Source: Silicimonas algicola (lineage in GTDB: Bacteria; Pseudomonadota; Alphaproteobacteria; Rhodobacterales; Rhodobacteraceae). From it: a DNA stretch of 64,000 bases. Location of the stretch: assembly GCF_003148765.1 (NCBI RefSeq), contig NZ_QGGV01000011.1, positions 1-64,000 on the forward strand, written 5' to 3'. Numbering within the stretch: position 1 is the stretch's first letter; every line of letters starts with the position of its first letter. This document shows positions 18,910-53,085 of the stretch, piece by piece. The position numbers and the translations under genes are program-made. Under the pieces are notes generated by a model. That model worked only from the letters and a program-made list of their open reading frames with translations. It was not told the DNA's origin and searched no databases.

Positions 18910-19833
18910 ATGGCGACACCAGGCAAGGCGGTCGAAGGCAAGGTGGTCCTCGTCACCGGGGCGGGCCGCGGCATCGGTCGCGCCATCGCCATGGCAATGG
19001 CGGCCGAAGGCGCGCGCGTCGTGGTCAACGACCTCGGCGTCGGCGTGGACGGCGCGGGGGGCGAGGCGGGGCCGGCGGAACAGACAGCCGACGACATTCG
19101 GGCGGCGGGCGGCGCTGCGGTGGCCAACACCGACAGCGTCGCGGACTGGGACGGCGCGCACCGCATGGTCGCGCAGGCACTGGACAACTTTGGCCGGATC
19201 GACGCGGTGGTGAACAACGCGGCGATCCTGCGCGACGCGATATTCCACAAGATGACGCGCGAGGACTGGGATCTTTCCCTGTCAGTGATCCTTTCCGGCA
19301 GCTTCTACGTCTCGCGCGCGGCGGCGCCGCACTTCCGGGCGCAAGAAGCCGGCGCCTATGTCCACGTCGCCTCGACCTCGGGCCTGATCGGCGGCATGGG
19401 ACAGGCGAACTACGGCGCGGCCAAGCTGGGCCTGCAGGGCCTGTCCAAGGCCATTGCGATCGACATGGCACGGTTCAACGTGCGGTCGAACATCGTGGCC
19501 CCCACGGCCTTTACCCGGATGACGGAATCGATCCCGACCCAGACGTCGGAACAACGCGCCCGCGCCGCCGCGCGTCGGACCATCCCGGCCGAACGCAACG
19601 CGCCGATTGTCGTCTATCTGGCCAGCGACTTGGCGGCCCATGTCTCGGGCCAGATCTTCTACACCCGCGACAACGAGCTGGTCCTGTTCAGCCAGCCCCG
19701 CCCGGTCCGGCAGGCGCATACCGCCGAGGGCTGGACCCCGCAGACCATCGCCGACCACGTCATGCCGGTATTTGCGCCGAATTTCGTGCCGCTGGACCGG
19801 ACCCGCGATGTATTCAAGGGCTATCTGCCGTGA
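18910..19833 (+). CDS. Short-chain dehydrogenase/reductase (MFE-2 3-hydroxyacyl-CoA dehydrogenase-like)
   Basis: 307 residues. The nucleotide motif is VTGAGRGIGRAIA, NNAAILRD is the NNAG-type motif, and the catalytic Ser-Tyr-Lys is seen in STSGLIGGMGQANYGAAKLG. The acidic loop after the second strand (VNDLGVGVDGAG) and the NAAILRD form are typical of the peroxisomal-type 3-hydroxyacyl-CoA dehydrogenase domain of MFE-2, and probably NAD-dependent. A 50-residue C-terminal tail exceeds the basic SDR fold. 20 bp after the permease; its stop overlaps the next gene's GTG. Confidence 0.86.
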   Translation: MATPGKAVEGKVVLVTGAGRGIGRAIAMAMAAEGARVVVNDLGVGVDGAGGEAGPAEQTADDIRAAGGAAVANTDSVADWDGAHRMVAQALDNFGRIDAVVNNAAILRDAIFHKMTREDWDLSLSVILSGSFYVSRAAAPHFRAQEAGAYVHVASTSGLIGGMGQANYGAAKLGLQGLSKAIAIDMARFNVRSNIVAPTAFTRMTESIPTQTSEQRARAAARRTIPAERNAPIVVYLASDLAAHVSGQIFYTRDNELVLFSQPRPVRQAHTAEGWTPQTIADHVMPVFAPNFVPLDRTRDVFKGYLP

Positions 19834-21929
19834 CACCCGATGCGCCCGACCTCGGCCGGCTGATCTCGCCGCGGGGGATCGCAGTGGTGGGCGCCTCGGA
19901 CAACGCGCGGTCGGTCGGCGGGCAGCCGATGATCTACCTCACCAGCTATGGCTACGCCGGCACGGTGCATCCTGTGAACCCGACGCGAGTCCGGGTAATG
20001 GGCCTGCCCTGCGTGCCGTCGGTCCGCGACGTCCCCGACCCCTGCGACGTGGCACTGGTCGCGGTCGCCGCACACCGGGTCGCCGACGTCATCCGCGACT
20101 GCGGTGCGCGCGGCATCCCCTTTGCGGTGATCCTGTCCTCGGGCTTTCGCGAGGCGGGGCCGGACGGTCAGTTGCTGGAGGCTAACTTGGCGAGCGTTGC
20201 GCGTGCGGCCGGCGTACGGCTCGTCGGTCCGAACTGCATGGGCGTCCTTAACATCCCCGAGCACATCCACTGCGGCTTTGGCCAGGGGTTTCGGGTCCGC
20301 GACTACATCCCCGGACCGGTGGCGATGGCGACGCAAAGCGGCGGCTACGGCTTCACCCTGCTGCGCAATGCCAGCCGCGAGAAGCTGGGGTTCAACCATG
20401 TCGTGTCGGTCGGCAACAGCATCGATCTGGACGCGCTGGATTTCGTCGGCCACTTCCTCGAACGCGACGACGTGCGGATCGTCACCGCGTTCCTAGAAGG
20501 CGTCCGCGACGGCCGCCGCCTCCTGACGCTCGGCCGCCGCGCGCTGGCGCTGGGCAAGCCGATCCTGGTGTGGAAGGTCGGCAACACCCCAGCCGGCCGC
20601 ACCGCCGCCGCATCCCACACGGCGAGCCTGACCAGCAGCTACGACCTGTTCCGTGCGGCGTTCCGCGAAGGCGGCATCATCGAGTTGCGCGATTACGAGG
20701 ATCTCGTGGACGTGGCGCGCGGCTTCCTTGGCGGGCGGCTGCCTCGCGGTCCCCGCGTCGGGTTAGTCAGCGGGTCGGGCGGGGCCGGGGTGATCGCCGC
20801 CGACCGGTTCTCCGAAGCCGGGCTGACCCTGCCGGCCTGGTCCGACGCGACCCGCGCGGCACTGCGCGACGGGCTCGGCCCATTCTCGGGCACCGGCAAC
20901 CCGATCGACCTGTCGGGCGAGGGCAGCCGCGACGGGCGCAGCCTGTCCAACATCGCGACGGACATCGTGCTGGCCGACGACGGCGTGGATATGGTCATGG
21001 TCCGATCCGGTCAAACCTCCGGGTCGGCCGCGGCCGCCCGCGCGCTCGCCGCAATCCGCGATGCGGCGGATAAGCCGGTGCTGGTGGCGACGGTGGCCGA
21101 GGATCATGCCGAGGGCAAAGCGGCGCTGGATGCCGCAGGCGTGCCCTGGTTCCTGACGGTCGGCCGTGCCGCGACAGCGGCGCGGGCGCTCGCCACCTTT
21201 GCCGCCGCCCAAGCCGCGCCGCCTGGCGACCCCAGCCCCCGCCCACTGCCCCGTCCCGCGCTGGAATTGCCCGACCGGGGCGGGTTTCTGAGCGAGGGGG
21301 ACTCCCGCCCGGTACTGGCGGCATACGGCATCCCGCAAGTCCGCACGTTGCATGTCGCGGGCGCAGTGCCGGCGAATCACGGCCTGTGCTATCCGCTGGC
21401 GGTCAAGGCGAACTGTGCCGGCCTGCCGCACAAGACCGAGGCCGGGGCCGTGCGGCTGAACCTCCCTGACTTGGCTTCGGTGAGGGCCGCCGCGCGTGAG
21501 GTGACCGGAGCCGCGTGCACCGCCAGCCCCGACACGCCGCCCGACGGCGTGCTGCTGCAAGAGATGACCCGCGGCACCGAACTGATCCTCGGCGCGATGG
21601 ACGACGCCTGTTTCGGCCCTATCGTCATGGTCGGCTTGGGCGGGGTTTTCGCGGAACTGCTGCGCGACACCGCCTACGGCTTTGCCCCCGTCTCGGCCGC
21701 GACCGCCCGCGCGATGATCGACAGCCTGCGCGGCAAGCCGCTGCTCGACGGCTGGCGTGGGGCCGCGCCCGCCGACCGCGACTCCGTGGCCGATGCGCTG
21801 GTGCGGCTGTCCTGGCTGATCGCCGACCACCGCGATCGGATCGCCGTCATCGACATCAACCCGCTGTTCGTCGAGGGCGACACCGTGCTGGCCGCCGATG
21901 CAGTGATCACGCTAAAGGACCTGGGCTGA
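19830..21929 (+). CDS. Acyl-CoA synthetase (NDP-forming), fused alpha and beta subunits
   Basis: 699 residues. Order: CoA-binding Rossmann domain (IAVVGASDNARSVGG; GPNCMGVLN), succinyl-CoA-ligase-like domains with the phosphorylated His in SHTASLTSSY, then an ATP-grasp domain from about residue 480 (YPLAVKANCAGLPHKTEAG; GVLLQEMTRGTELILGAMDD; MVGLGGVFAELLRD). This is the fused layout of archaeal-type ADP-forming acetyl-CoA synthetases and of bacterial acid:CoA ligases such as feruloyl- or pimeloyl-CoA synthetase. A second possible activator, or a CoA-recycling step, beside the CaiB transferase. GTG 19830 overlaps the SDR stop. Confidence 0.86.
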   Translation: MTPDAPDLGRLISPRGIAVVGASDNARSVGGQPMIYLTSYGYAGTVHPVNPTRVRVMGLPCVPSVRDVPDPCDVALVAVAAHRVADVIRDCGARGIPFAVILSSGFREAGPDGQLLEANLASVARAAGVRLVGPNCMGVLNIPEHIHCGFGQGFRVRDYIPGPVAMATQSGGYGFTLLRNASREKLGFNHVVSVGNSIDLDALDFVGHFLERDDVRIVTAFLEGVRDGRRLLTLGRRALALGKPILVWKVGNTPAGRTAAASHTASLTSSYDLFRAAFREGGIIELRDYEDLVDVARGFLGGRLPRGPRVGLVSGSGGAGVIAADRFSEAGLTLPAWSDATRAALRDGLGPFSGTGNPIDLSGEGSRDGRSLSNIATDIVLADDGVDMVMVRSGQTSGSAAAARALAAIRDAADKPVLVATVAEDHAEGKAALDAAGVPWFLTVGRAATAARALATFAAAQAAPPGDPSPRPLPRPALELPDRGGFLSEGDSRPVLAAYGIPQVRTLHVAGAVPANHGLCYPLAVKANCAGLPHKTEAGAVRLNLPDLASVRAAAREVTGAACTASPDTPPDGVLLQEMTRGTELILGAMDDACFGPIVMVGLGGVFAELLRDTAYGFAPVSAATARAMIDSLRGKPLLDGWRGAAPADRDSVADALVRLSWLIADHRDRIAVIDINPLFVEGDTVLAADAVITLKDLG

Positions 21930-22795
21930 TGCCGCTCGACCCCGACAGGCTCGCCGCCTACCGCATTCCGGTCACCACGATGGAGTGGACCGAGCGCGAC
22001 ACCATGCTTTACGCGCTGGGCGTGGGCCTGGGCGCCGACCCTCTGGACACGTGTCAGTTGCGCTTCGTCTGGGAGGAAGGGCTGCTGGCCCTGCCGACGA
22101 TGGCTGCTATCCTCGCAGCGCCCCATGCCTGGATACGCCACGCCGATGTCGGATCCTCGGGCCGCAGCGTCCACGCCGGCATCCGGCTCGCCCTGCACGC
22201 ACCGATCCCCGTGGCGGGGCGGGTGCGGTCCGACAACACCGTGGCCGAGGTCATCGACAAGGGCCCAGGCAAGGCCGCACTTGTGACGACCCGGCGCGAG
22301 ATCGTGTCGGACCCGGACGGCCGCTCGCTCTGCACGATCCTGTCTACGAGCATGCAGCGCGGCGACGGCGGCTTTGGCGGATCGCCAACCCCGGCCGAAC
22401 CGCCGCGCCCGATGCCCGATCGCGCCCCGGACGAAGTCATGGACATCCACGTCCTGCCGCAAGCCGGACTGATCTACCGGCTTTCCGGCGATCGTAACCC
22501 GCTGCACGTCGATCCCATGACCGCGCGGCGCCACGGGTTTCCCCGGCCTATCCTGCATGGCCTCGCCACCTTCGGCAGGGCCGGCCACGCAGTGATGGCC
22601 CGGCTCTGCAGCTATGACCCCACGCGGCTGCGTGCCATCGCGGCGCGGTTTTCGCAGCCCGTCTACCCGGGGGACACCCTGCGCATCGGGCTGTGGCGTG
22701 AAACCCGCGGGCCGCACCGGTTCCGCGCCTGGGTGCCGGCGCGGGACGACGTGGTGGTGCTGGACGGTGGCGAGGCGGAGGTGATGGATGGCTGA
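21929..22795 (+). CDS. MaoC-type double hot-dog hydratase (HTD2/mesaconyl-CoA hydratase-like)
   Basis: 288 residues. An N-terminal MaoC_N-like half (YALGVGLGADPLDTCQLRFV) is followed by a C-terminal half with the R-hydratase motif YRLSGDRNPLHVDPMTA and GFPRPILHGLAT, whose Asp and His are the catalytic pair. Hydrates an enoyl-CoA, giving an R-3-hydroxyacyl-CoA. ATG 21929 overlaps the ligase stop. Together with the SDR upstream and the fused acyl-CoA dehydrogenase downstream it makes a full dehydrogenation-hydration-oxidation set. Confidence 0.88.
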   Translation: MPLDPDRLAAYRIPVTTMEWTERDTMLYALGVGLGADPLDTCQLRFVWEEGLLALPTMAAILAAPHAWIRHADVGSSGRSVHAGIRLALHAPIPVAGRVRSDNTVAEVIDKGPGKAALVTTRREIVSDPDGRSLCTILSTSMQRGDGGFGGSPTPAEPPRPMPDRAPDEVMDIHVLPQAGLIYRLSGDRNPLHVDPMTARRHGFPRPILHGLATFGRAGHAVMARLCSYDPTRLRAIAARFSQPVYPGDTLRIGLWRETRGPHRFRAWVPARDDVVVLDGGEAEVMDG

Positions 22796-24137
22796 CGGAC
22801 GCAGCGCGGCGCTGGCCGCATGGATCTCCGGGGCCGCCGACCGGCCGCTACCGGACGAGGTCCGCGCCGCGGCGCGCGAGGCGTTGATCGACCACATCGG
22901 CGTCGCCGTGGGTGCCGCGAACGAAGGCGTGACGCTGGTCGCCCGGCGCATGGCTCAACGCTGGGCAATGCCCGGCAGGGCGCGCATCTACACCGGCGGC
23001 CTCACCGGCGCCCCGCTCGCGGCACTGGTCAACGGCACGATGGCCCATGCCACCGACTTCGACGACACCCACGAAAACGGATCGGGCCATATCTCGGCGC
23101 CGGTGCTGTCGGCGGCACTGGCGCTGGCACTGGACCAGGGGCAGGAGGGCGACCGCGCGGTGGCGGGCTTCGTCGCGGGATTCGAGGTGATGGCCCGTCT
23201 TGGTGGTGGCTTCATCGACGGTGTGGGCCGCAACTTGCAGGCGCGCGGGTTCCATCCTACGGGCATCCACGGCGTCGTCGGCGCGGCGGCGGCGGCCTCT
23301 GTCCTGCGCGGCTTCGACGCCGCTGCCACCGCCAGCGCGCTCGGTGCCGCCGCCACTACCGCTTCGGGGCTCGTCGCGTCCTTCGGCACCCATGCCAAGC
23401 CGTTTCATGCCGGCCATGCCGCGATGAACGGGCTGATGGCTGCGGATCTCGCCGCCGACGGCTTTGCCGCCGCGACCGATCTGCTGGACCTCGACCGGGG
23501 CCTGCTGCCCGCGATGATCCAGGACGGAAAGGTCACGGTGCCGCCGCTCGACCTCGACCGCTGGCTGATCCTGCGCAACGGCTACAAGCCCTTTGCCTGC
23601 TGCCGCGCGACCCATGCGTCGGCGCAGGCGGGCCACAGGATCGGACCGCGCCTCGCCGGCCGCAGGATCACCCGCGTGACCACCCGCGTCCACCGCAGCG
23701 CTCCTTTCACCGCCGGGCGGATGGACCCGCAGACCCCGCTCGAGGCCAAATTCAGCGTCGCCTTCTGCCTGTCGGCGGCAATCTGCGGGTATCAGCTGGA
23801 GGACACCGATTTCGCCGAACCGATGCTGCGCGACACCCGCGTCCGGGCGATCCTGCCGGTGGTAGAGCTGCACCCGCAGCCCGACCAGCCGCAGTCGCAG
23901 GCGCGGATCGATGTCTGGCTGGAGGACGGCACGCAGCTGACCGAGGAGACGACGCTGTTCCTCGGCCACCCCGACAACCCGATGGGCCGCGACCGCATCG
24001 CGGGCAAATTCCTGTCGCTGGTGACGCCGGTCCTGGGCGAGGGCCGGACGACCCGCCTGCTTGCGGCGCTGGACCGATTCGAAAGCCCCGGCGCGCTGGG
24101 CGAAATGGCGGACCTGCTCGCAGGCCGGGCGGCATGA
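22788..24137 (+). CDS. MmgE/PrpD-family protein (second of five)
   Basis: 449 residues. Family hallmarks: GTMAHATDFDDTHENGSGH, RGFHPTGIHGVVGAAAAA, SFGTHAKPFHAGHAAMNG, and GYKPFACCRATHAS. Differs in detail from the two like pairs in the window (7362 with 30078; 27504 with 35356), so it stands alone. The start overlaps the MaoC gene by 8 bp, and the stop overlaps the next ATG. Expected to add or remove water, or remove a carboxyl, on a polycarboxylate; the order relative to CoA activation is not clear. Confidence 0.84.
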   Translation: MADGRSAALAAWISGAADRPLPDEVRAAAREALIDHIGVAVGAANEGVTLVARRMAQRWAMPGRARIYTGGLTGAPLAALVNGTMAHATDFDDTHENGSGHISAPVLSAALALALDQGQEGDRAVAGFVAGFEVMARLGGGFIDGVGRNLQARGFHPTGIHGVVGAAAAASVLRGFDAAATASALGAAATTASGLVASFGTHAKPFHAGHAAMNGLMAADLAADGFAAATDLLDLDRGLLPAMIQDGKVTVPPLDLDRWLILRNGYKPFACCRATHASAQAGHRIGPRLAGRRITRVTTRVHRSAPFTAGRMDPQTPLEAKFSVAFCLSAAICGYQLEDTDFAEPMLRDTRVRAILPVVELHPQPDQPQSQARIDVWLEDGTQLTEETTLFLGHPDNPMGRDRIAGKFLSLVTPVLGEGRTTRLLAALDRFESPGALGEMADLLAGRAA

Positions 24138-26395
24138 CCGACGACGCGGACGACCTGCTGGCACTGATGACGAACAGCGCGGCCCGCTTTGCCGGGGCGT
24201 CGACCGACCGGGCGCGCGCCTTGCGCGGTAGGCTGCCGGGGTTCGACCAGGGCGTCTGGGACGCGATGACGGCACAGGGCTGGACCGGTGTGATGGTGCC
24301 AGAGGACGCGGGCGGGCAGGGCCTGACCCTCGCCGCCGCCTGCGCTTTGCTGGACCCGCTGGCCCGGGCGCTCCTCCCCGAACCGCTCGCTGCCGTGGCG
24401 GTCGAAGCGGCGGTGCTGGCCGGGGCCGTGGACGCGATCGAGGTGCTGCAGGGCATCGCTGCGGGCCGGGTCACGGTGGTCGCTGCGGGGGGAACGCTGG
24501 CGGTCGCGGCGGGGCGATTGTCGGGGCGGGTGAATCATGTACCAGTTGGCCCGGGGGCCGACCTGTTCCTTGTTGCGGCCCCCTACGGCCAGATCGCCGC
24601 CCTGCCGCCCGGCACGCCGGGCCTGACGGTGACGCCAGAACCCCGCGCCGACGGAACCTATGCCGCGCGGCTGGATCTGGACGCCGTTCCGATCGGCATG
24701 GCTCTAGCCGAAGGTGCCACCGGCCGGTCCGCCCTGCGCCGCGCCCGCGCTGCCGCCGTCATCGCCACCTCGGCCGAATTGTTCGCCTGCATGGACCGGG
24801 CGCTGGAGATCACGCTCGACTACATGCGTCTGCGCGAACAGTTCGGCCGGCCGATAGGCGCGTTCCAGGCGCTCCAGCACCGCGCTGTGGACCTCTACAT
24901 CCAGAAGGAACTGGCGCGCGCCGTGCGGGACGAGGCAGTCGCCGCCTTTGACGCAGGGGCTGACCCTGACTGGCTGGACCTTGTGGCGTCGCGCGCGAAG
25001 GCCCGCGCGGGCCATGCGGCGGCGTTGATCGGCCGCGAGGCCATCAAGCTGCACGGCGCCATCGGCGTGACCGATGCCCATGACGCCGGTCTCTACTTGC
25101 GGCGCATCCTGTCGCTGGCTGCCTTGCACGGCAACGCCGACCACCACCGCATCCGCTGCGACGCGCTTAGCCCGACTCTGACCGAAGCTAAGGACACCAA
25201 CCTCCCGCCGCCTCCGCCCGAATTTCTGGCCAACAGCAACGCCGACATCGACTGGAACGCTTGGCCGGAGCCGGTATTTCGCGCCGGCATCCGGGCCTGT
25301 TTCGACCGGTACTACCCCGACCACTTACGCCACAAGGGCCGGCGCGGGACACCAGCAGAGCTGCGCGACTGGCTGGCGCTGATGGTCGCCAAGGGCTGGA
25401 TGGCCCCGGCCTGGCCGCGCGACCGGGGCGGCATGGGCCTGTCGCCGGCACGGCAACTGATCTTCATCGAGGAACGCGAACGCGCCGGGATCATGCGCCA
25501 CCCCGATCAGGGTACGGTGATGCTGGGGCCGATGCTGATGCGGCATGGCACGGCCGCGCAGCAGGACCACTGGCTGCCCCGCATCCTGTCGAACAAAACG
25601 ATCTGGTGCCAGGGTTATTCCGAGCCGCAGGCGGGGTCGGATCTGGCCAGCCTGCGCACCCGTGCGGTGGCGAGGGACGGCGGCTGGACCCTCGACGGGT
25701 CGAAGATTTGGACCACAATGGCGCACCACGCGACCCACATGTTCCTGCTGGCGCGCACCGACCTGCAGGCGAAAAAGCAGGCGGGGCTCAGTTTCTTCCT
25801 CCTCGACCTCGCAACGCCCGGCGTCACGATCCGGCCGATCCGCAACATCGCCGGCCACGAGGAGTTCTGCGAGGTGTTCTTCGACGCCGTCGCGATCCCG
25901 GCCGAAAATCTTGTCGGGCCGCTGCACGGTGGTTGGACCGTGGCCAAGTCGGTACTCGGGTTCGAGCGACTGAACAACGGCAGCCCGCGCCGGGTCGAGG
26001 GGCCACTGAAGCTGGTGACCGAACTGGCTCAGGCGACGGGGTTGGACGCCGACCCGGTGTTCCTATCGCGGCTGGCGGCGGTGACGCTGGACGTGGCTGA
26101 CCTGAAATCCGCCTATGCCCGCTTTGCCGGGCAGGTCGCCGCCGGCGAGTCGCCGGGGCCCGAGGTGTCGCTGCTCAAGGTCTGGGCCGGCGAATGCGCG
26201 CAGCGGCTGACCGAATTCCTGATCGAGGCGGCGGGCGAGGCCGGTGGCGTCGCCGGGCGGCAGGACTTCAGCGGGGTGCAGCTCGACGTTCTGGCGCCGT
26301 TCTACGCTATGTTTCCCGCGCAGATTGCGTCGGGCACCAACGATATCCAGCGGAACATCCTCGCCACCCGGGTGCTGGGCCTGCCGCGCAGCTAG
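24134..26395 (+). CDS. Fused double acyl-CoA dehydrogenase
   Basis: 753 residues with two ACAD modules. Module 1 (about 1-350) is of the small FadE29-like type: it has LREQFGRPIGAFQALQHR and KLHGAIGVTDAHDAG and a short variable middle domain. A proline-rich linker (LPPPPPEF) follows. Module 2 (about 375-753) is of the larger type, with QGYSEPQAGSDLASL, GSKIWTTMAHHATH and a C-terminus SGTNDIQRNILATR. The window has an unfused homologous pair at 50825-53085 in the opposite order (large then small). Such pairs form alpha2beta2 enzymes for branched or steroid-side-chain acyl-CoAs. Confidence 0.88.
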   Translation: MTDDADDLLALMTNSAARFAGASTDRARALRGRLPGFDQGVWDAMTAQGWTGVMVPEDAGGQGLTLAAACALLDPLARALLPEPLAAVAVEAAVLAGAVDAIEVLQGIAAGRVTVVAAGGTLAVAAGRLSGRVNHVPVGPGADLFLVAAPYGQIAALPPGTPGLTVTPEPRADGTYAARLDLDAVPIGMALAEGATGRSALRRARAAAVIATSAELFACMDRALEITLDYMRLREQFGRPIGAFQALQHRAVDLYIQKELARAVRDEAVAAFDAGADPDWLDLVASRAKARAGHAAALIGREAIKLHGAIGVTDAHDAGLYLRRILSLAALHGNADHHRIRCDALSPTLTEAKDTNLPPPPPEFLANSNADIDWNAWPEPVFRAGIRACFDRYYPDHLRHKGRRGTPAELRDWLALMVAKGWMAPAWPRDRGGMGLSPARQLIFIEERERAGIMRHPDQGTVMLGPMLMRHGTAAQQDHWLPRILSNKTIWCQGYSEPQAGSDLASLRTRAVARDGGWTLDGSKIWTTMAHHATHMFLLARTDLQAKKQAGLSFFLLDLATPGVTIRPIRNIAGHEEFCEVFFDAVAIPAENLVGPLHGGWTVAKSVLGFERLNNGSPRRVEGPLKLVTELAQATGLDADPVFLSRLAAVTLDVADLKSAYARFAGQVAAGESPGPEVSLLKVWAGECAQRLTEFLIEAAGEAGGVAGRQDFSGVQLDVLAPFYAMFPAQIASGTNDIQRNILATRVLGLPRS

Positions 26396-31495: not shown

Positions 31496-33025
31496 ATGAC
31501 CCCGATCGACCTGCGCCAGTTTCAACCCGATGTGATCGTCGTCGGCGCCGGCAATGCCGCCCTCAGTGCGGCCATCTCGGCGCAGGAGAACGGCGCCCGG
31601 CCGCTGATCGTCGAGGCCGCGCCGTTCGAGGAACGGGGGGGCAACTCGCACTATACTGGCGGCGCGTTCCGCTTCGCCTACGACGGGGTGGACGACCTCT
31701 TGGAGATTTGCCCGGCGATGGCCGAGGAGGACCTGACGCAGATCGATTTCGGCACCTACACCGAGGAACAGTATTTCGACGACATGTTCGAGCTGACGCA
31801 GTTCCGCACCGACCCCGAGCTGTGCGAGATCCTAGTCCGGTCGAGCAAGGAGACTGCTAAGTGGGTCGCCCAGCAGGGCGTTAAGATGTGGCCAGGCCTC
31901 GGCCGGCAGGCCTACAAGGTCGACGGTAAGTTCCGGTTCTGGGGCGGGCTCGCTCTGCACATCTCGGGCGGAGGGCCGGAGATGCTTGCAGCACTCTATG
32001 CCCGGGCCGAGGTGCTGGGGATCCCGGTCGCCTACGAGACGCCGGCCGTCGAATTGCTGCGCGACGGCGACCGCGTCACCGGCGTCGCGGTGATGAGCAA
32101 GGGCGAGCGGGTGGAGCTTCGCGCCGGTGCCGTGGTGCTGGCCTGCGGCGGGTTCGAATCGAACCCCGAGATGCGGGCGCGCTACCTCGGCCCCGGCTGG
32201 GACCTCGCCAAGGTGCGCGGGACGCGGTTCAACATGGGCGCGGGCCTGCGCATGGCACTGGCCATCGGGGCGCGCAGCCACGGCAACTGGTCGGGCTGCC
32301 ATTCCGTCGCCTGGGACGTGAACGCGCCGCCCTTTGGCGATCTGGCCATCGGCGACCAGTTCCAGAAGCACAACTATCCATATGGTATCCTGGTGAACGC
32401 CAAGGGCGAGCGCTACGTTAACGAGGGCGCCAACTTCCACTCGCACACCTATGCCAAGTATGGCGGCGAGATCCTGAAACAGCCGGGCATGTTCGCCTGG
32501 CAGGTGTTCGACGACAAGACGCGGCACCTGCTGCGAGGCGAATACCGCATCCGTCGCGTGACCAAGGTTGAATCCGACACCATCGACGGGCTGGCCGAGC
32601 AACTGGACGGCGTCGATACCGAAGCCTTCCTGCGCATGGTGCGCGACTTCAACGCCGCCTGCCGCACCGACACCCCGTTTGACCCGAACGTCCGCGACGG
32701 CCGCCGGACCGAGGGGCTAGCCATCGACAAGACCAACTGGGCCAACCCGATCGACACCCCGCCATTCCACGCCTACCACGTCACCACGGGCATCACCTTC
32801 ACCTTCGGCGGGCTCAAGGTGACGACAGATACGGCGGTCGAATCAGAATTTGGCGCGCCAATCGCCGGCCTTTATGCCGCGGGCGAAATCGTTGGCGGGC
32901 TGTTCGTCCACAACTACGCCAGCGGCACCGGCCTGATGTCGGGCGCGACCTTCGGCCGGATCGCCGGTCGAAACGCGGCCCGGCACGCGCAGGTCGCCGA
33001 CACCGAAACACGCGCCACCGCGTGA
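31496..33025 (+). CDS. FAD-dependent dehydrogenase, TcuA (tricarballylate dehydrogenase)-like
   Basis: 509 residues of the fumarate-reductase flavoprotein family. DVIVVGAGNAALSAA is the dinucleotide-binding motif; GGNSHYTGGAFRF, GTRFNMGAGLRMALAIGA and the C-terminal YAAGEIVGGLFVHNYASGTG are typical of TcuA, which oxidises tricarballylate to cis-aconitate in Salmonella. No iron-sulfur electron-acceptor partner (TcuB) is encoded nearby. AAGGAG lies 7 bp before ATG 31496. Lies between an MmgE/PrpD and a TctC gene, as expected for uptake and oxidation of a tricarboxylic acid. Confidence 0.84.
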   Translation: MTPIDLRQFQPDVIVVGAGNAALSAAISAQENGARPLIVEAAPFEERGGNSHYTGGAFRFAYDGVDDLLEICPAMAEEDLTQIDFGTYTEEQYFDDMFELTQFRTDPELCEILVRSSKETAKWVAQQGVKMWPGLGRQAYKVDGKFRFWGGLALHISGGGPEMLAALYARAEVLGIPVAYETPAVELLRDGDRVTGVAVMSKGERVELRAGAVVLACGGFESNPEMRARYLGPGWDLAKVRGTRFNMGAGLRMALAIGARSHGNWSGCHSVAWDVNAPPFGDLAIGDQFQKHNYPYGILVNAKGERYVNEGANFHSHTYAKYGGEILKQPGMFAWQVFDDKTRHLLRGEYRIRRVTKVESDTIDGLAEQLDGVDTEAFLRMVRDFNAACRTDTPFDPNVRDGRRTEGLAIDKTNWANPIDTPPFHAYHVTTGITFTFGGLKVTTDTAVESEFGAPIAGLYAAGEIVGGLFVHNYASGTGLMSGATFGRIAGRNAARHAQVADTETRATA

Positions 33026-48734: not shown

Positions 48735-50834
48735 ATGACCGACACGCCGGACAAAGTGGTGCGGCTCGAGCGCGTTGACGCAACCGGGCTCGTCATCATC
48801 GACAACCCGCCGGTCAACGCCTCGTCGCATGCCGTGCGGCAGGGACTGACAGAGGCCTTGGCAATGGCGCAGGCGGACGACGACATCGACGTGATCGTCG
48901 TCTTCGGTGCCGGGCGAACCTTCATCGCGGGCGCCGATATCCGGGAGTTCGGCAAGCCGCCCCTCCACCCCCTCCTGCCCGAAGTGAACAACGGCATCGA
49001 AGCCTCTGAAAAGCCTGTCATAGCGGTTCTGCACGGAACGGCGCTTGGCGGCGGATTCGAGGTCGGTCTCGCCTCCCACGCCCGGATCGCGCTGCCGGGC
49101 ACGCAGGTCGGCCTGCCAGAGGTGACCCTCGGTGTTCTGCCCGGTGCGGGCGGCACGCAGAGGGTGCCTCGGCTGATCGGCATTCCGGCGGCGCTCGACA
49201 TGATAACCTCCGGGCGCCGGATCGGCGCGGACGAGGCGCTGAAGCTGGGACTGATCGACCGCATCGAAGCAGGCGACGTGCGCGATGTCGCACTGCGTAT
49301 GGCCGAGGCTGTTCGGGCGGGGGACCTGAAGACTTGGCGCACGGGCGACCTGGCGGTCACGCCCGACGAGACGGCGCTCGAGGCCGAAGCCGAGAGGCTG
49401 GACCGCACCGCCCGCCACCTTTTCTCTCCGCACAAGTGCGTCGAAGCCGTGGCCCTCTCGACTGGCGACCTTGCCCGGGGCCTCACGCGAGAGCGCGAGC
49501 TTTTCATGGAGTGCATCGACAGCCCGCAGCGCGCCGGGCTGATCCACGCCTTCTTCGCCGAGCGCGCCGCAGCCCGCATTCCCGAAGCGGGGACGCCCCC
49601 CATGCAGGTCGAAAGCGTCGGCGTGATCGGCGGCGGCACCATGGGGTCCGGCATCGCGACCGCCTGCCTACTCGCAGGCCTTCCGGTGACCCTGGTTGAA
49701 CAGACCGACGACGCACTCGACCGCGGCGGCGCCGCCGTGGCGGCAAACCTCGCGCAGGCGGTGAAACGCGGCAAGCTGACCGAGGACGCCCGCGCGGCGA
49801 TCCTCTCGGACGCTCTGACGCTGACCACCGACATGGCCGATCTGGCCGAGGCCGACCTCGTGATCGAAGCCGTCTTCGAGGACATGGACATCAAGCGTTC
49901 GATCTTTCGCCGCCTCGACCGCATCTGCAAGCCGGGCGCGATCCTTGCCACGAACACCTCCTACCTCGACGTGAACGCCATCGCCGCCGAGACGACGCGA
50001 CAGGAGGACGTCATCGGCCTCCACTTCTTCTCGCCTGCCCACGTCATGCGCCTTCTGGAGGTCGTGGTCGCCCATCGCACCGCGCCCGATGTCGTGGCGA
50101 CGGGCTTTGCGCTGGCGAAGCGGCTCAGGAAGGTCGCGGTACGGGCGGGCGTCTGCGACGGCTTCATCGGCAACCGCATCCTCGCGCACTATCGCAAGGC
50201 CGTGGACTATATGCTGATGGACGGCGCATCGCCCCAGCAGATCGACGCCGCTCTCGAAGATTTCGGTTTCGCCCTCGGCCCTTTCGCGGTCTCGGACCTC
50301 GCCGGGCTCGACATCGCCTGGGCCACGCGCAAGCGAAAGGCACCCCTCCGCCCGCCGGAGGAGCGCTACATCGCCATCGCCGACCGGATCTGCGAGATGG
50401 GATGGTTCGGCCGCAAGACCGGACGGGGCTTCTACCTTTATGGCGACGGCAAGCCGGTGCCGAACCCCGATGCGCTCGCGATCGTCGACGAAGAGCGCAC
50501 GAATGCCAGGATCACCCCGCGAGACTTCACCGACGACGAGATCGTCGCGCGGGTCATGACCGCCATGATATCGGAAGCGACGCGCGTGCTCGAGGATGGC
50601 ATCGCGCTCCGGCCGTCCGACATCGACGCGGTCTTTCTCTTCGGGTACGGATTTCCACGTCACAGGGGCGGACCGATGCACCACGCCGATACGGTCGGCG
50701 CGGCGGAACTCGTCCGGCGGATCGAAGCCTGGGCAAGGGACGACCCGTACTACTGGCAGGTGCCGCCGCTTCTGGCCCGAATGGCGCAGGAGGGCGGCAC
50801 CTTCGCCGAGATGAAGGAGCGCGAATGGACCTGA
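48735..50834 (+). CDS. 3-hydroxyacyl-CoA dehydrogenase / enoyl-CoA hydratase, multifunctional (FadJ/FadB-like)
   Basis: 699 residues. The N-terminal crotonase domain (about 1-190) has both glutamates (LGGGFEVGLASH, VGLPEVTLGVLPGAGGTQR) and may also isomerise. From about 295 comes the dehydrogenase: SVGVIGGGTMGSGIATA for NAD, ATNTSYLDVNAIA, IGLHFFSPAHVM with the catalytic His, and the C-terminal helical repeats. Start MTDTPDKVV follows GAGGAG by 5 bp. It is transcribed with the two dehydrogenases below (10-bp overlap), giving three steps of beta-oxidation; the thiolase is elsewhere. Confidence 0.9.
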   Translation: MTDTPDKVVRLERVDATGLVIIDNPPVNASSHAVRQGLTEALAMAQADDDIDVIVVFGAGRTFIAGADIREFGKPPLHPLLPEVNNGIEASEKPVIAVLHGTALGGGFEVGLASHARIALPGTQVGLPEVTLGVLPGAGGTQRVPRLIGIPAALDMITSGRRIGADEALKLGLIDRIEAGDVRDVALRMAEAVRAGDLKTWRTGDLAVTPDETALEAEAERLDRTARHLFSPHKCVEAVALSTGDLARGLTRERELFMECIDSPQRAGLIHAFFAERAAARIPEAGTPPMQVESVGVIGGGTMGSGIATACLLAGLPVTLVEQTDDALDRGGAAVAANLAQAVKRGKLTEDARAAILSDALTLTTDMADLAEADLVIEAVFEDMDIKRSIFRRLDRICKPGAILATNTSYLDVNAIAAETTRQEDVIGLHFFSPAHVMRLLEVVVAHRTAPDVVATGFALAKRLRKVAVRAGVCDGFIGNRILAHYRKAVDYMLMDGASPQQIDAALEDFGFALGPFAVSDLAGLDIAWATRKRKAPLRPPEERYIAIADRICEMGWFGRKTGRGFYLYGDGKPVPNPDALAIVDEERTNARITPRDFTDDEIVARVMTAMISEATRVLEDGIALRPSDIDAVFLFGYGFPRHRGGPMHHADTVGAAELVRRIEAWARDDPYYWQVPPLLARMAQEGGTFAEMKEREWT

Positions 50835-52012
50835 ACTTCACCGAGCAAGAGCTTGCCTTCCGGGAGGAGGTGCGGCGCTTCCTTGACGAAAAGCTGCCTG
50901 CAGAGATCGCCGACAAGGTCATCGCGGGCCGCGAGTTGACCAAATCCGACATGGAGCGGTGGCACGCGATCCTGAACGCAAGAGGCTGGCTCGCCTCGAC
51001 CTGGCCGGTCGATTTCGGCGGGCCCGGCTGGGGGCCGGTCGAACGTCACATCTTCGAGGAGGAGGCCTGCCGCGCCGGCGCGCCGCGTGTCCTGCCATTC
51101 GGGCTTCACATGCTGGCCCACGTCCTGATGAAGTTCGGAACGAAGGAACAGCAGGACCACTACCTCCCCCGCATCCTCGAAGGCACCGACTGGTGGTGTC
51201 AGGGGTATTCCGAGCCGGGCGCGGGATCGGACCTCGCCAGCCTCAGGACGACCGCGGTGCGCGGCGGAGACGCCTATCTCGTCAACGGTCAGAAGACCTG
51301 GACGACCCTCGGCCAGCACGCGAACCGGATCTTTTGCCTTGTCCGCACGAAAAAGGATGGAAAGCCGCAGGAGGGGATCAGCTTCCTCCTCGTCGACCTC
51401 GACAGCCCCGGCATCGAGATGCGCCCCATCCGCCTGATCGAAGGCGGGCACGAGGTGAACGAGGTATTCTTCACCGACGTGCGCGTTCCGGCTGAAAACC
51501 TCGTCGGCGACGAGAACCAGGGTTGGACCATCGCCAAGTATCTTCTCACCCACGAGAGGACGAACATTGCCGGCATCGGCTTCTCGGTTCAGGCCTTCGA
51601 GCAGGTGAAGGCGCTGGCTCGGACGGTGAAACGCGGCGGCAAGCGCCTGATCGACGACCCGCTTTATGCCGCGCGGCTGGCCCGCGTCGAGGCCGAACTC
51701 GAGGCGTTGAAGATCACCAACCTCAGGATGCTGTCCAACGCGCAGAAGAACGGCCAGCCCGGCCTCGAAAGCTCGATGCTCAAGATCAAGGGAACGGTGA
51801 TCCGGCAGGCGCTGAACGATCTAGCCCGCCGCGCGCTTGGCCCCGCCGCCGGGCCTTTCCCGGCAGAAGCGCTTGCCGGCAACCTCGAGATCGCGCCGCC
51901 CGAGCACGCCCGCGCCGCGGCGCGGTACTTCAACAACCGCAAGATCTCGATCTTCGGCGGCTCGAACGAGATCCAGCGGAACATCCTCTCCAAGTCGATG
52001 CTGGAGCTTTAG
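50825..52012 (+). CDS. Acyl-CoA dehydrogenase, large-type partner
   Basis: 395 residues. GWLASTWPVDFGGPGWGPVE, QGYSEPGAGSDLASLRT, NGQKTWTTLGQHANRIF and the C-terminal FGGSNEIQRNILSK give the fold. The usual catalytic Glu before G-[TS]-N-E is Phe here (I-F-G-G-S-N-E), as in FadE28-type subunits that work as heteromers. Overlaps the FadJ-like gene; 2 bp before its small partner. Homologue of module 2 of the fused protein at 24134. Confidence 0.9.
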   Translation: MDLNFTEQELAFREEVRRFLDEKLPAEIADKVIAGRELTKSDMERWHAILNARGWLASTWPVDFGGPGWGPVERHIFEEEACRAGAPRVLPFGLHMLAHVLMKFGTKEQQDHYLPRILEGTDWWCQGYSEPGAGSDLASLRTTAVRGGDAYLVNGQKTWTTLGQHANRIFCLVRTKKDGKPQEGISFLLVDLDSPGIEMRPIRLIEGGHEVNEVFFTDVRVPAENLVGDENQGWTIAKYLLTHERTNIAGIGFSVQAFEQVKALARTVKRGGKRLIDDPLYAARLARVEAELEALKITNLRMLSNAQKNGQPGLESSMLKIKGTVIRQALNDLARRALGPAAGPFPAEALAGNLEIAPPEHARAAARYFNNRKISIFGGSNEIQRNILSKSMLEL

Positions 52013-52014
52013 AC

Positions 52015-53085
52015 GTGGATTTCGAAACCTCCGACGACCGCCGGATGCTGGCCGACACGCTGGCGCGCTTCCTTGCCGAGGCCTGCCCGCCCGAAAAGCG
52101 CGCGACGCTGGCTTATGCCGCACCCTTCCACGACCACGAAGCGTGGTCCGGCCTCGCCGGACTCGGCGTCCTGATGGCCTTCATCCCCGAAGCCGAGGGC
52201 GGTCTCGGGGGCAGAGGCTTCGACGTGATGACGGTCTTCGAACAGATCGGCCGCGCCCTGTCGCCCGAACCCGTTCTTCCAGCGCTGATGGCCGCGCGTC
52301 TTCTCCTTGCGGCAAGAGGCGACGTCGATGGCTTGATGAGCGGAGAGGTCCGCCTTGCCGTGGCCATCGGCGAACCCGACGCGCCGTGGGACCTGTCCGA
52401 CATCGCGACACGGGCGGAGCGCAACGCCGACCGGTGGACCCTCACGGGACGCAAAAGTGTCGTCTACGGGGGCAACGACGCCGACCGTCTGCTGGTCGCA
52501 GCGCGGACCGGCGAGGGCCTGTCTCTTTTCGATGTATCCCCTGAAAATGCTGGGGTGATCGGCTACGGCATGATCGACGGCGGCGGCGCGGCCGAGGTGA
52601 TCCTCGACGCCACCCCGGCGACGCTGTTGATCGAGAACGCGGAAGACGCGCTGAACGACGCGCTCGACCACGGCCGCCTTGCGCTCTGCGCCGAAGCCCT
52701 GGGTGCGATGGACCATGTGCAGGCTCTCACGCTCGACTACCTGAAAACCCGCCAGCAGTTCGGCCGCCCCATCGGCAAGAACCAGGCCCTCCAGCACCGC
52801 ATGGTCGATCTGATGACCGAGATCGAGCAGGCGCGGTCCATCACCATCCTCGCCGCTTCGCGCATGGCCGAGGGTGACCGCGCCCGCAGCGTGGCCATGG
52901 CCAAGCACCTGGTGGGGAGGGTCGCGACGCTCGTCGCCGAGGAAGCGATCCAGATGCACGGCGGCATCGCGATGACATGGGAACACCCCGTCTCGCATTA
53001 CGCCAAGCGACTGGTGATGATCGACCACCAGCTCGGCGACACGGACTTTCACCTGTCCCGGCTGATGGAGGATCTCCGCGCCTGA
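52015..53085 (+). CDS. Acyl-CoA dehydrogenase, small-type partner
   Basis: 356 residues, GTG start 2 bp after the TAG of the large partner. LKTRQQFGRPIGKNQALQHR and IQMHGGIAMTWEHPVSHYAKR are the conserved C-terminal motifs; the middle domain is short and diverged, as in FadE29-type subunits. Homologue of module 1 of the fused enzyme at 24134. The pair probably forms an alpha2beta2 dehydrogenase for branched or bulky acyl-CoAs. Confidence 0.88.
   Translation: MDFETSDDRRMLADTLARFLAEACPPEKRATLAYAAPFHDHEAWSGLAGLGVLMAFIPEAEGGLGGRGFDVMTVFEQIGRALSPEPVLPALMAARLLLAARGDVDGLMSGEVRLAVAIGEPDAPWDLSDIATRAERNADRWTLTGRKSVVYGGNDADRLLVAARTGEGLSLFDVSPENAGVIGYGMIDGGGAAEVILDATPATLLIENAEDALNDALDHGRLALCAEALGAMDHVQALTLDYLKTRQQFGRPIGKNQALQHRMVDLMTEIEQARSITILAASRMAEGDRARSVAMAKHLVGRVATLVAEEAIQMHGGIAMTWEHPVSHYAKRLVMIDHQLGDTDFHLSRLMEDLRA

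Follow-up and report, generated by a model that had tools for sequence, protein, structure and literature searches.

Can the two unlike subunits of a heteromeric acyl-CoA dehydrogenase (ACAD) be made as a single chain, and how does such a chain arise? The question is raised by a gene in a 64,000-nucleotide stretch of the Silicimonas algicola genome (contig NZ_QGGV01000011.1, positions 1 to 64,000; the window), in which a small-type and a large-type ACAD module lie in a single uninterrupted open reading frame (ORF) running from an ATG to a stop (Table 1). The ATG overlaps the stop of the preceding MmgE/PrpD gene (ATGA). The Pfam matches to the product, all above the Pfam cut-offs, were PF02771 (N-terminal domain) and PF00441 (C-terminal domain), twice each, and PF02770 (middle domain) once, which places the protein in the ACAD superfamily. 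The original prediction, made from the window's letters alone, had proposed heteromeric modules of both types in one frame, and the ORF, the Pfam domains and the PDB sequence matches agree with it. It had also described a proline-rich linker: an LPPPPPE run is present here and in Wenxinia marina, but the Devosia fusion has no proline run, indicating that the run is not essential. Fusion of the two modules would fix their stoichiometry at 1:1.

In 394 family genomes, a full-length open fusion with 82% identity was recovered from W. marina DSM 24838 (G074), and a third intact fusion, 58-59% identical across its full length, was found in a Devosia metagenome-assembled genome. In each of these two copies the linker spans 25-30 residues. 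The junction is thus open in two separate further assemblies, bearing out the earlier claim of a genuine fusion. Searching the window's own genome (4.34 Mb) with the fusion gave 15 matches at E 0.001, with both modules covered by the fusion alone. Fused small-large ACADs were detected in 3/394 family genomes at E <=1e-85 (the window genome; G074, with two different ones; and G379), in 2/367 genomes of the class draw (E 1e-80) and in 2/388 of the phylum draw (E 1e-85), one of the two being the window's own in both draws; these frequencies are lower bounds that cover only matches at the stated E-values. Such fusions are uncommon but real. The second W. marina fusion (757 residues) is distant, and with its sister in G379 (783 residues) it belongs to a PimC-like branch (L049, L048). 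A plasmid-borne fusion of Comamonas endophytica (L082:1892-4359) is broken near its end, with the C-terminal part of the large module in another frame, and represents either a pseudogene or a sequencing error.

Complementary modules and the predicted FAD site

When the modules were compared with all PDB sequences, module 1 was closest to 6wy8_A, Tcur3481 (1.5e-24), followed by 4x28_D (5.8e-16), and module 2 to 6wy9_A, Tcur3483 (1.1e-43), followed by 4x28_A (1.9e-42); each module is nearest in sequence, among solved proteins, to a different subunit of the same heteromeric steroid ACADs (ChsE4-ChsE5 and Tcur3481-Tcur3483), which, unlike the fusion, consist of separate chains and have steroid substrates. 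Glu611 of the fusion aligned with Glu247 of 4x28_A, which we take to be the catalytic base of ChsE4. Among the NCBIfam models, the first half matched the small-subunit model pimD (TIGR03203, 145.7 against a cut-off of 652.7) and the second half the large-subunit model pimC (TIGR03204, the best model for the fusion, 240.5 against 623.85), both far below the cut-offs. TIGR03203 was also the best model for the separate small subunit encoded elsewhere in the window, and neither the fusion nor that separate pair passes as a PimC-PimD pimeloyl-CoA dehydrogenase.

The active-site motifs were compared in an alignment of 144 non-redundant partner sets (13 small-first fusions, one large-first fusion, 42 small-then-large and 88 large-then-small tandem pairs) and eight ordinary ACADs, from which L191, L140, L150 and rows sharing their first 100 residues were left out. 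The base column held Glu in 144/144 large modules and in 0/144 small ones; in the window fusion it is Glu611 in module 2 and Ala in module 1. The Ser and Asp of EPxxGSD were found in 143/144 and 144/144 large modules and in 0/144 and 47/144 small ones, and the Trp of WTT in 143/144 large and 11/144 small. Conversely, the Arg and Phe of RxQF were present in all 144 small modules (4/144 and 0/144 of the large), and the His of HGxxG in 142/144 (0/144 of the large). Two columns did not discriminate, namely the first Gly of HGxxG (144/144 small, 134/144 large) and the first Glu of EPxxGSD, which is also Glu in 128/144 small modules and a gap in module 1 of the window. Considered jointly, the split holds in 144/144 sets: Arg and Phe occur together in no large module, and Ser, Asp and Trp together in no small one. 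Of the eight ordinary ACADs, all had Arg, 7 had Phe, 7 Ser, 6 Trp and 5 Asp, and 3 had Glu in the base column.

These complementary columns suggest that the two halves of a pair have each lost the elements retained by the partner, and that the fusion amounts to one complete set. The fusion appears to be built as a heteromeric ACAD of the ChsE or Tcur type, with two different ACAD parts and Glu in one of them. In ACAD structures these motifs contact FAD (flavin adenine dinucleotide); with the split parts on one chain, each chain would hold parts of one FAD site, and the motif split is consistent with one predicted site per alpha-beta unit, to which both modules contribute.

We think it likely that the fusion is a single-chain alpha-beta heteromeric ACAD, with one FAD per chain, derived from a small-then-large gene pair. 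The ORF, its orthologues, the motif split and the grouping with small-then-large pairs described below all speak for it, and from them we infer an oligomer, an FAD count, a reaction and a pathway position. The large C-terminal module would bind the acyl-CoA and the flavin end of FAD, with Glu611 as the base, and the small N-terminal module, its own active site lost, would supply loops holding the ADP end; two chains would then form a pseudo-tetramer with two FADs. The enzyme may dehydrogenate the CoA ester of a branched or bulky acid at the alpha,beta position, between the steps of the neighbouring ligase and MaoC-type hydratase, and its origin would lie in a tandem pair of a type still present in relatives.

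AlphaFold models gave a mean pLDDT (predicted local distance difference test) of 73.8 and a pTM (predicted template modelling score) of 0.74 for the window fusion, and 75.0 and 0.67 for the Devosia fusion; separate small subunits were kept out of the underlying alignments, as MAFFT placed them on the large module. Chains of 6wy9, 6wy8 and 4x28 took Foldseek ranks 1-4 for both models. With VIA-align, residues 265-752 of the window model were covered, with 6wy9_A first (Z 33.5), and the model was well matched there only; residues 1-375 of the Devosia model were covered, ordinary ACADs (Z 37.3) tying with 6wy8_C (Z 36.4). Both modules of the Devosia model appear to fold as ACADs.

Some of this weighs against a single-chain heteromeric enzyme. 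The base column is not Glu in 5/8 ordinary ACADs, whose base is located elsewhere, which makes this column alone weak evidence, and the tie between ordinary ACADs and 6wy8_C means that a heteromeric ACAD is not recognisable from its fold alone. The model alignments were shallow (11 sequences, with the small module covered by 3), the window model has a pLDDT <50 at residues 1-34 and 49-72, and the substrate is a guess from neighbouring genes.

The strongest competing explanation, a tentative one that falls a little short of an even chance, places the FAD site in trans: the covalent pair would sit at the dimer-dimer interface in the manner of the N-terminal extension of methylsuccinyl-CoA dehydrogenase, and FAD would be shared by two chains. 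In the two Foldseek top-50 lists, alignments longer than 432 columns were obtained with methylsuccinyl-CoA dehydrogenases alone (window model: 6es9, 590 columns, and 8ciw, 596; Devosia model: 6es9, 596). PMC5798300 describes an N-terminal ACAD-derived helical part that lies before a full ACAD core and mimics helices G-K of the neighbour at the dimer-dimer interface. The models therefore suggest that the covalent pair may meet at this interface with the FAD site between chains. On the other hand, the Foldseek alignments came without residue ranges and with a root-mean-square deviation of 6.4-8.1 Å; methylsuccinyl-CoA dehydrogenases were not in the VIA-align lists, which does not exclude them; and modelling a monomer cannot distinguish cis from trans. 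According to PMC5798300, these enzymes also differ from the fusion in that the extension comprises ~170 residues from a partial self-duplication, in a homodimer of 60-kDa subunits.

Origin of the fusions and order of the modules

Phylogenies of both modules, which had been proposed as a check, were built as quick trees with SH-aLRT (Shimodaira-Hasegawa-like approximate likelihood ratio test) support and contain several long branches, so their numbers are approximate. In both, the window fusion groups with small-then-large heteromeric pairs. In the large-module tree it forms one group with the W. marina and Devosia fusions (starred support 100), nested in a starred set that comprises small-then-large pairs and fusions (27 rows, 98; 29 rows, 99 in a second tree), the nearest unfused pairs being L094, L095, L096 and L098 (support 91, not starred); the small-module tree gave a matching placement (30 rows, starred 98), indicating that the partners travelled together. 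Left out were 23 duplicate or near-duplicate loci of the first set, later L060, and L082 past its first 295 residues, as well as 21 loci of the wider sample (duplicates and long stretches already covered); for the second large-module tree L080 was dropped and the large-then-small pairs were 24 random draws plus the window's.

In 18/43 small-then-large pairs the stop of the small gene is embedded in ATGA or GTGA, and in L095, L096 and L098 the ATG of the large gene is two bases past the small stop; a frame change and a linker would turn such a tandem pair into a fusion. In three other loci (L093:5154-8922, L108 and L118) one small subunit gene is followed by two large ones in tandem, suggesting that a single small subunit may be shared by two catalytic ones.

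A single clade of all 13 small-first fusions was rejected (approximately unbiased test, p-AU 6.9e-5), which supports repeated fusion or, less simply, repeated splitting. Their distribution requires at least 7 changes on the large-module tree, 5 of them forced by starred branches, and at least 8 on the small-module tree, 3 of them forced. That a single ancient fusion was split again many times seems improbable to us: counts of changes on a tree do not tell gain from loss, which leaves room for it, but the few fused rows (14/144) are interspersed with unfused ones, which would call for splitting much more often than fusion, and the lone large-first fusion requires an event of its own. The simpler reading is that fusion occurred repeatedly. 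Among relatives, most of which make the two partners separately, fused forms alternate with separate ones, and fused and unfused relatives with 50-60% identity in the large module are usable pairs for examining the effects of fusion on stability, FAD retention and a cis or trans active site.

The first 11 fusions found were all small-first (11/11), and the wider sample contained 13 small-first and one large-first fusion. The latter, L190:2023-4407 (795 residues, in G958, of the same phylum and another class), has the reverse of the window order and is a counterexample to any rule that fusions are always small-first. It was the one spanning match without a stop when the phylum draw was searched with a joined large-small query (49 matching genomes of 388); the same query found no large-first fusion in the class draw (30 loci from 40 matching genomes of 367). 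Tandem pairs whose two genes share a frame and are separated by just one stop were about equally common in both orders (45/91 large-first, 18/43 small-first). The pooled contrast in order between fused (13:1 small-first to large-first) and tandem sets (43:91) was significant (Fisher 1.2e-5) but is biased, since most of the fetched plasmid matches, 6 of the 13 fusions, had been chosen as single-piece and the query itself was small-first; with the class and phylum draws alone it was 2:1 against 23:61 (p 0.20). A bias towards the small-first order is therefore not shown.

FadE34 is a fused ACAD. A 2021 review describes two fused ACAD domains in CasC of Rhodococcus jostii RHA1 (bile-acid degradation), with the catalytic Glu in the C-terminal one only and the N-terminal one needed for FAD, as well as heterotetrameric steroid ACADs with Glu in one subunit only, so the fused architecture was already known. 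The window fusion resembles CasC, by that description, in having two fused domains with the catalytic one C-terminal, and differs in phylum and gene neighbourhood. We give little credence to the fusion being a CasC/FadE34 orthologue acting on a steroid side chain. The shared domain order and division of labour, and the fact that the well-studied heteromeric ACADs are steroid enzymes, favour this view, but the sampled actinobacterial fusions (L087, L088) fall in another group than the window fusion (CasC itself is not in the tree) and the single clade of small-first fusions was rejected. Moreover, Pfam scans of 40 distinct ORFs returned TctA, PrpD, CoA-transferase and related genes, and nothing recognisable as a set for steroid ring cleavage; Pfam names by themselves cannot exclude one. 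The window fusion shows that single-chain heteromeric ACADs of the CasC type also occur beyond the steroid breakdown of actinobacteria. What is new is a proteobacterial fusion group outside the steroid setting, evidence for more than one fusion event and a conserved cluster; in searches of open-licence papers on fused ACADs, nothing was found on the proteobacterial group, repeated fusion or the cluster.

The original prediction had further pointed to the same two ACAD types encoded apart about 25 kb away in the opposite order, large first, and this holds (Table 1); a FadB-like gene lies upstream, its end overlapping the large gene. Its proposal that the two loci offer a before-and-after test of evolution was not supported. 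Identity between the fusion and the pair is just 42% for the large and 36% for the small module, and each tree puts the two loci in different starred groups. Both subunits of the pair cluster with other large-then-small pairs; on the large-module side its starred sets contain nothing else (13 rows, 100; 10 rows, 96), and the wider branch around them also includes small-first pairs and fusions. On these sequence comparisons the window pair does not appear to be the unfused counterpart of the fusion, and small-then-large pairs in other genomes (L094, L095, L096 and L098; L032-L041; L043; L081) would be better comparators. Direct descent of the fusion from this pair by duplication and permutation is very improbable: both subunit types are present in one genome, as it would need, but both module trees contradict it, the nearest unfused kin being small-then-large pairs elsewhere. 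A resolvase-domain gene (PF00239, 44225-44953) between the two ACAD regions is a possible trace of mobility. The chance that a sequencing or assembly error joined two adjacent genes is negligible, since a small error could do so at ATGA or GTGA junctions but the independent open frames in three genera rule out an artefact.

The conserved gene neighbourhood

The 25 genes from 4277 to 36681 are kept in the same order in W. marina, with 66-97% identity (Blast), and 20 of them lie within 33 kb in the Devosia genome in a changed order; there the fusion follows a TcuA-like flavoprotein gene (73.7% identical) and a PrpD gene, that is, one gene apart. The analysis thereby marks a conserved, unexplained catabolic cluster.

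Table 1. Coordinates of the ACAD genes, their predicted parts and neighbouring genes in the window
Feature	Coordinates	Strand	Evidence
SDR (short-chain dehydrogenase/reductase) dehydrogenase	18910..19833	+	PF13561 on longer ORF; ATG from sequence
Acid-CoA ligase, ADP-forming type	19830..21929	+	PF13549, PF13607, PF13380; NCBIfam ligase models below cut-offs
MaoC-type hydratase	21952..22795 (start approximate)	+	PF01575, PF22622 on longer ORF 21515-22795
MmgE/PrpD gene	22788..24137	+	PF03972, PF19305
Fused acyl-CoA dehydrogenase, 753 aa	24134..26395	+	Single ORF; orthologous fusions in W. marina and Devosia
Module 1, small-type (non-catalytic) ACAD, residues ~1-346	24134..25171	+	Best PDB sequence matches 6wy8_A, 4x28_D; small-subunit grouping
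REQFG loop, residues 234-238, module 1; predicted FAD-site part	24833..24847	+	Column counts over partner sets
HGAIG loop, residues 307-311, module 1; predicted FAD-site part	25052..25066	+	Column counts over partner sets
Linker, residues ~347-371 (~25 residues), proline-rich	25172..25246	+	Sequence comparison with Wenxinia and Devosia
Module 2, large-type (catalytic) ACAD, residues ~372-753	25247..26392	+	Best PDB sequence matches 6wy9_A, 4x28_A
EPQAGSD motif, residues 497-503, module 2	25622..25642	+	Column counts over partner sets
KIWTT motif, residues 524-528, module 2	25703..25717	+	Trp column counts
Glu611 codon, predicted catalytic base, module 2	25964..25966	+	Aligns with Glu247 of 4x28_A; column counts
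TcuA-type (tricarballylate dehydrogenase family) flavoprotein	31496..33025	+	NF006130 570.7 bits, cut-off 369
Unfused large ACAD subunit, PimC-like	50825..52012 (ATG to TAG)	+	TIGR03204 460.8 bits, below cut-off 623.85
Unfused small ACAD subunit, PimD-like	52015..53085 (GTG start)	+	TIGR03203 228.9 bits, below cut-off 652.7; start chosen from sequence

The cassette of SDR, ADP-forming ligase, MaoC, PrpD and fusion genes reads as one for acid activation, dehydrogenation, hydration and oxidation, judging from the predicted families. The TcuA-type flavoprotein fails a second TcuA model (TIGR02485, 267.2 against 372.55); within the cluster, a 3-hydroxy-3-methylglutaryl-CoA (HMG-CoA) lyase model was passed (263.4, cut-off 246) and the PrpB model narrowly missed (347.1, cut-off 354.4). 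Five MmgE/PrpD genes (Pfam matches) and a TctA gene are also present in the window. From the TcuA-like, PrpB-like, HMG-CoA-lyase-like and TctA genes our guess is that the substrate may be a branched di- or tricarboxylic acid. A wider proposal, possible but doubtful as a whole, combines two parts: that the fusion is the flavin step of an undescribed branched di-/tricarboxylic acid pathway, encoded by a cluster of ~20 genes in three genera (several MmgE/PrpD genes, a PrpB-like lyase, a TcuA-like flavoprotein, TctA-type uptake, an HMG-CoA-lyase-like gene, a CoA-transferase and an ADP-forming ligase), and that heteromeric ACADs have been fused many times, with FAD shared in trans across the dimer-dimer interface.

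The cluster is not kept near the unfused kin of the fusion: the L094 region has a ligase and a lyase-like match only, and the L095 region has SDR, hydratase and MaoC matches without the rest. On the Actibacterium plasmid pNS6002, the genes are arranged as ligase-MaoC-small-large-SDR, with the two ACAD genes separate.

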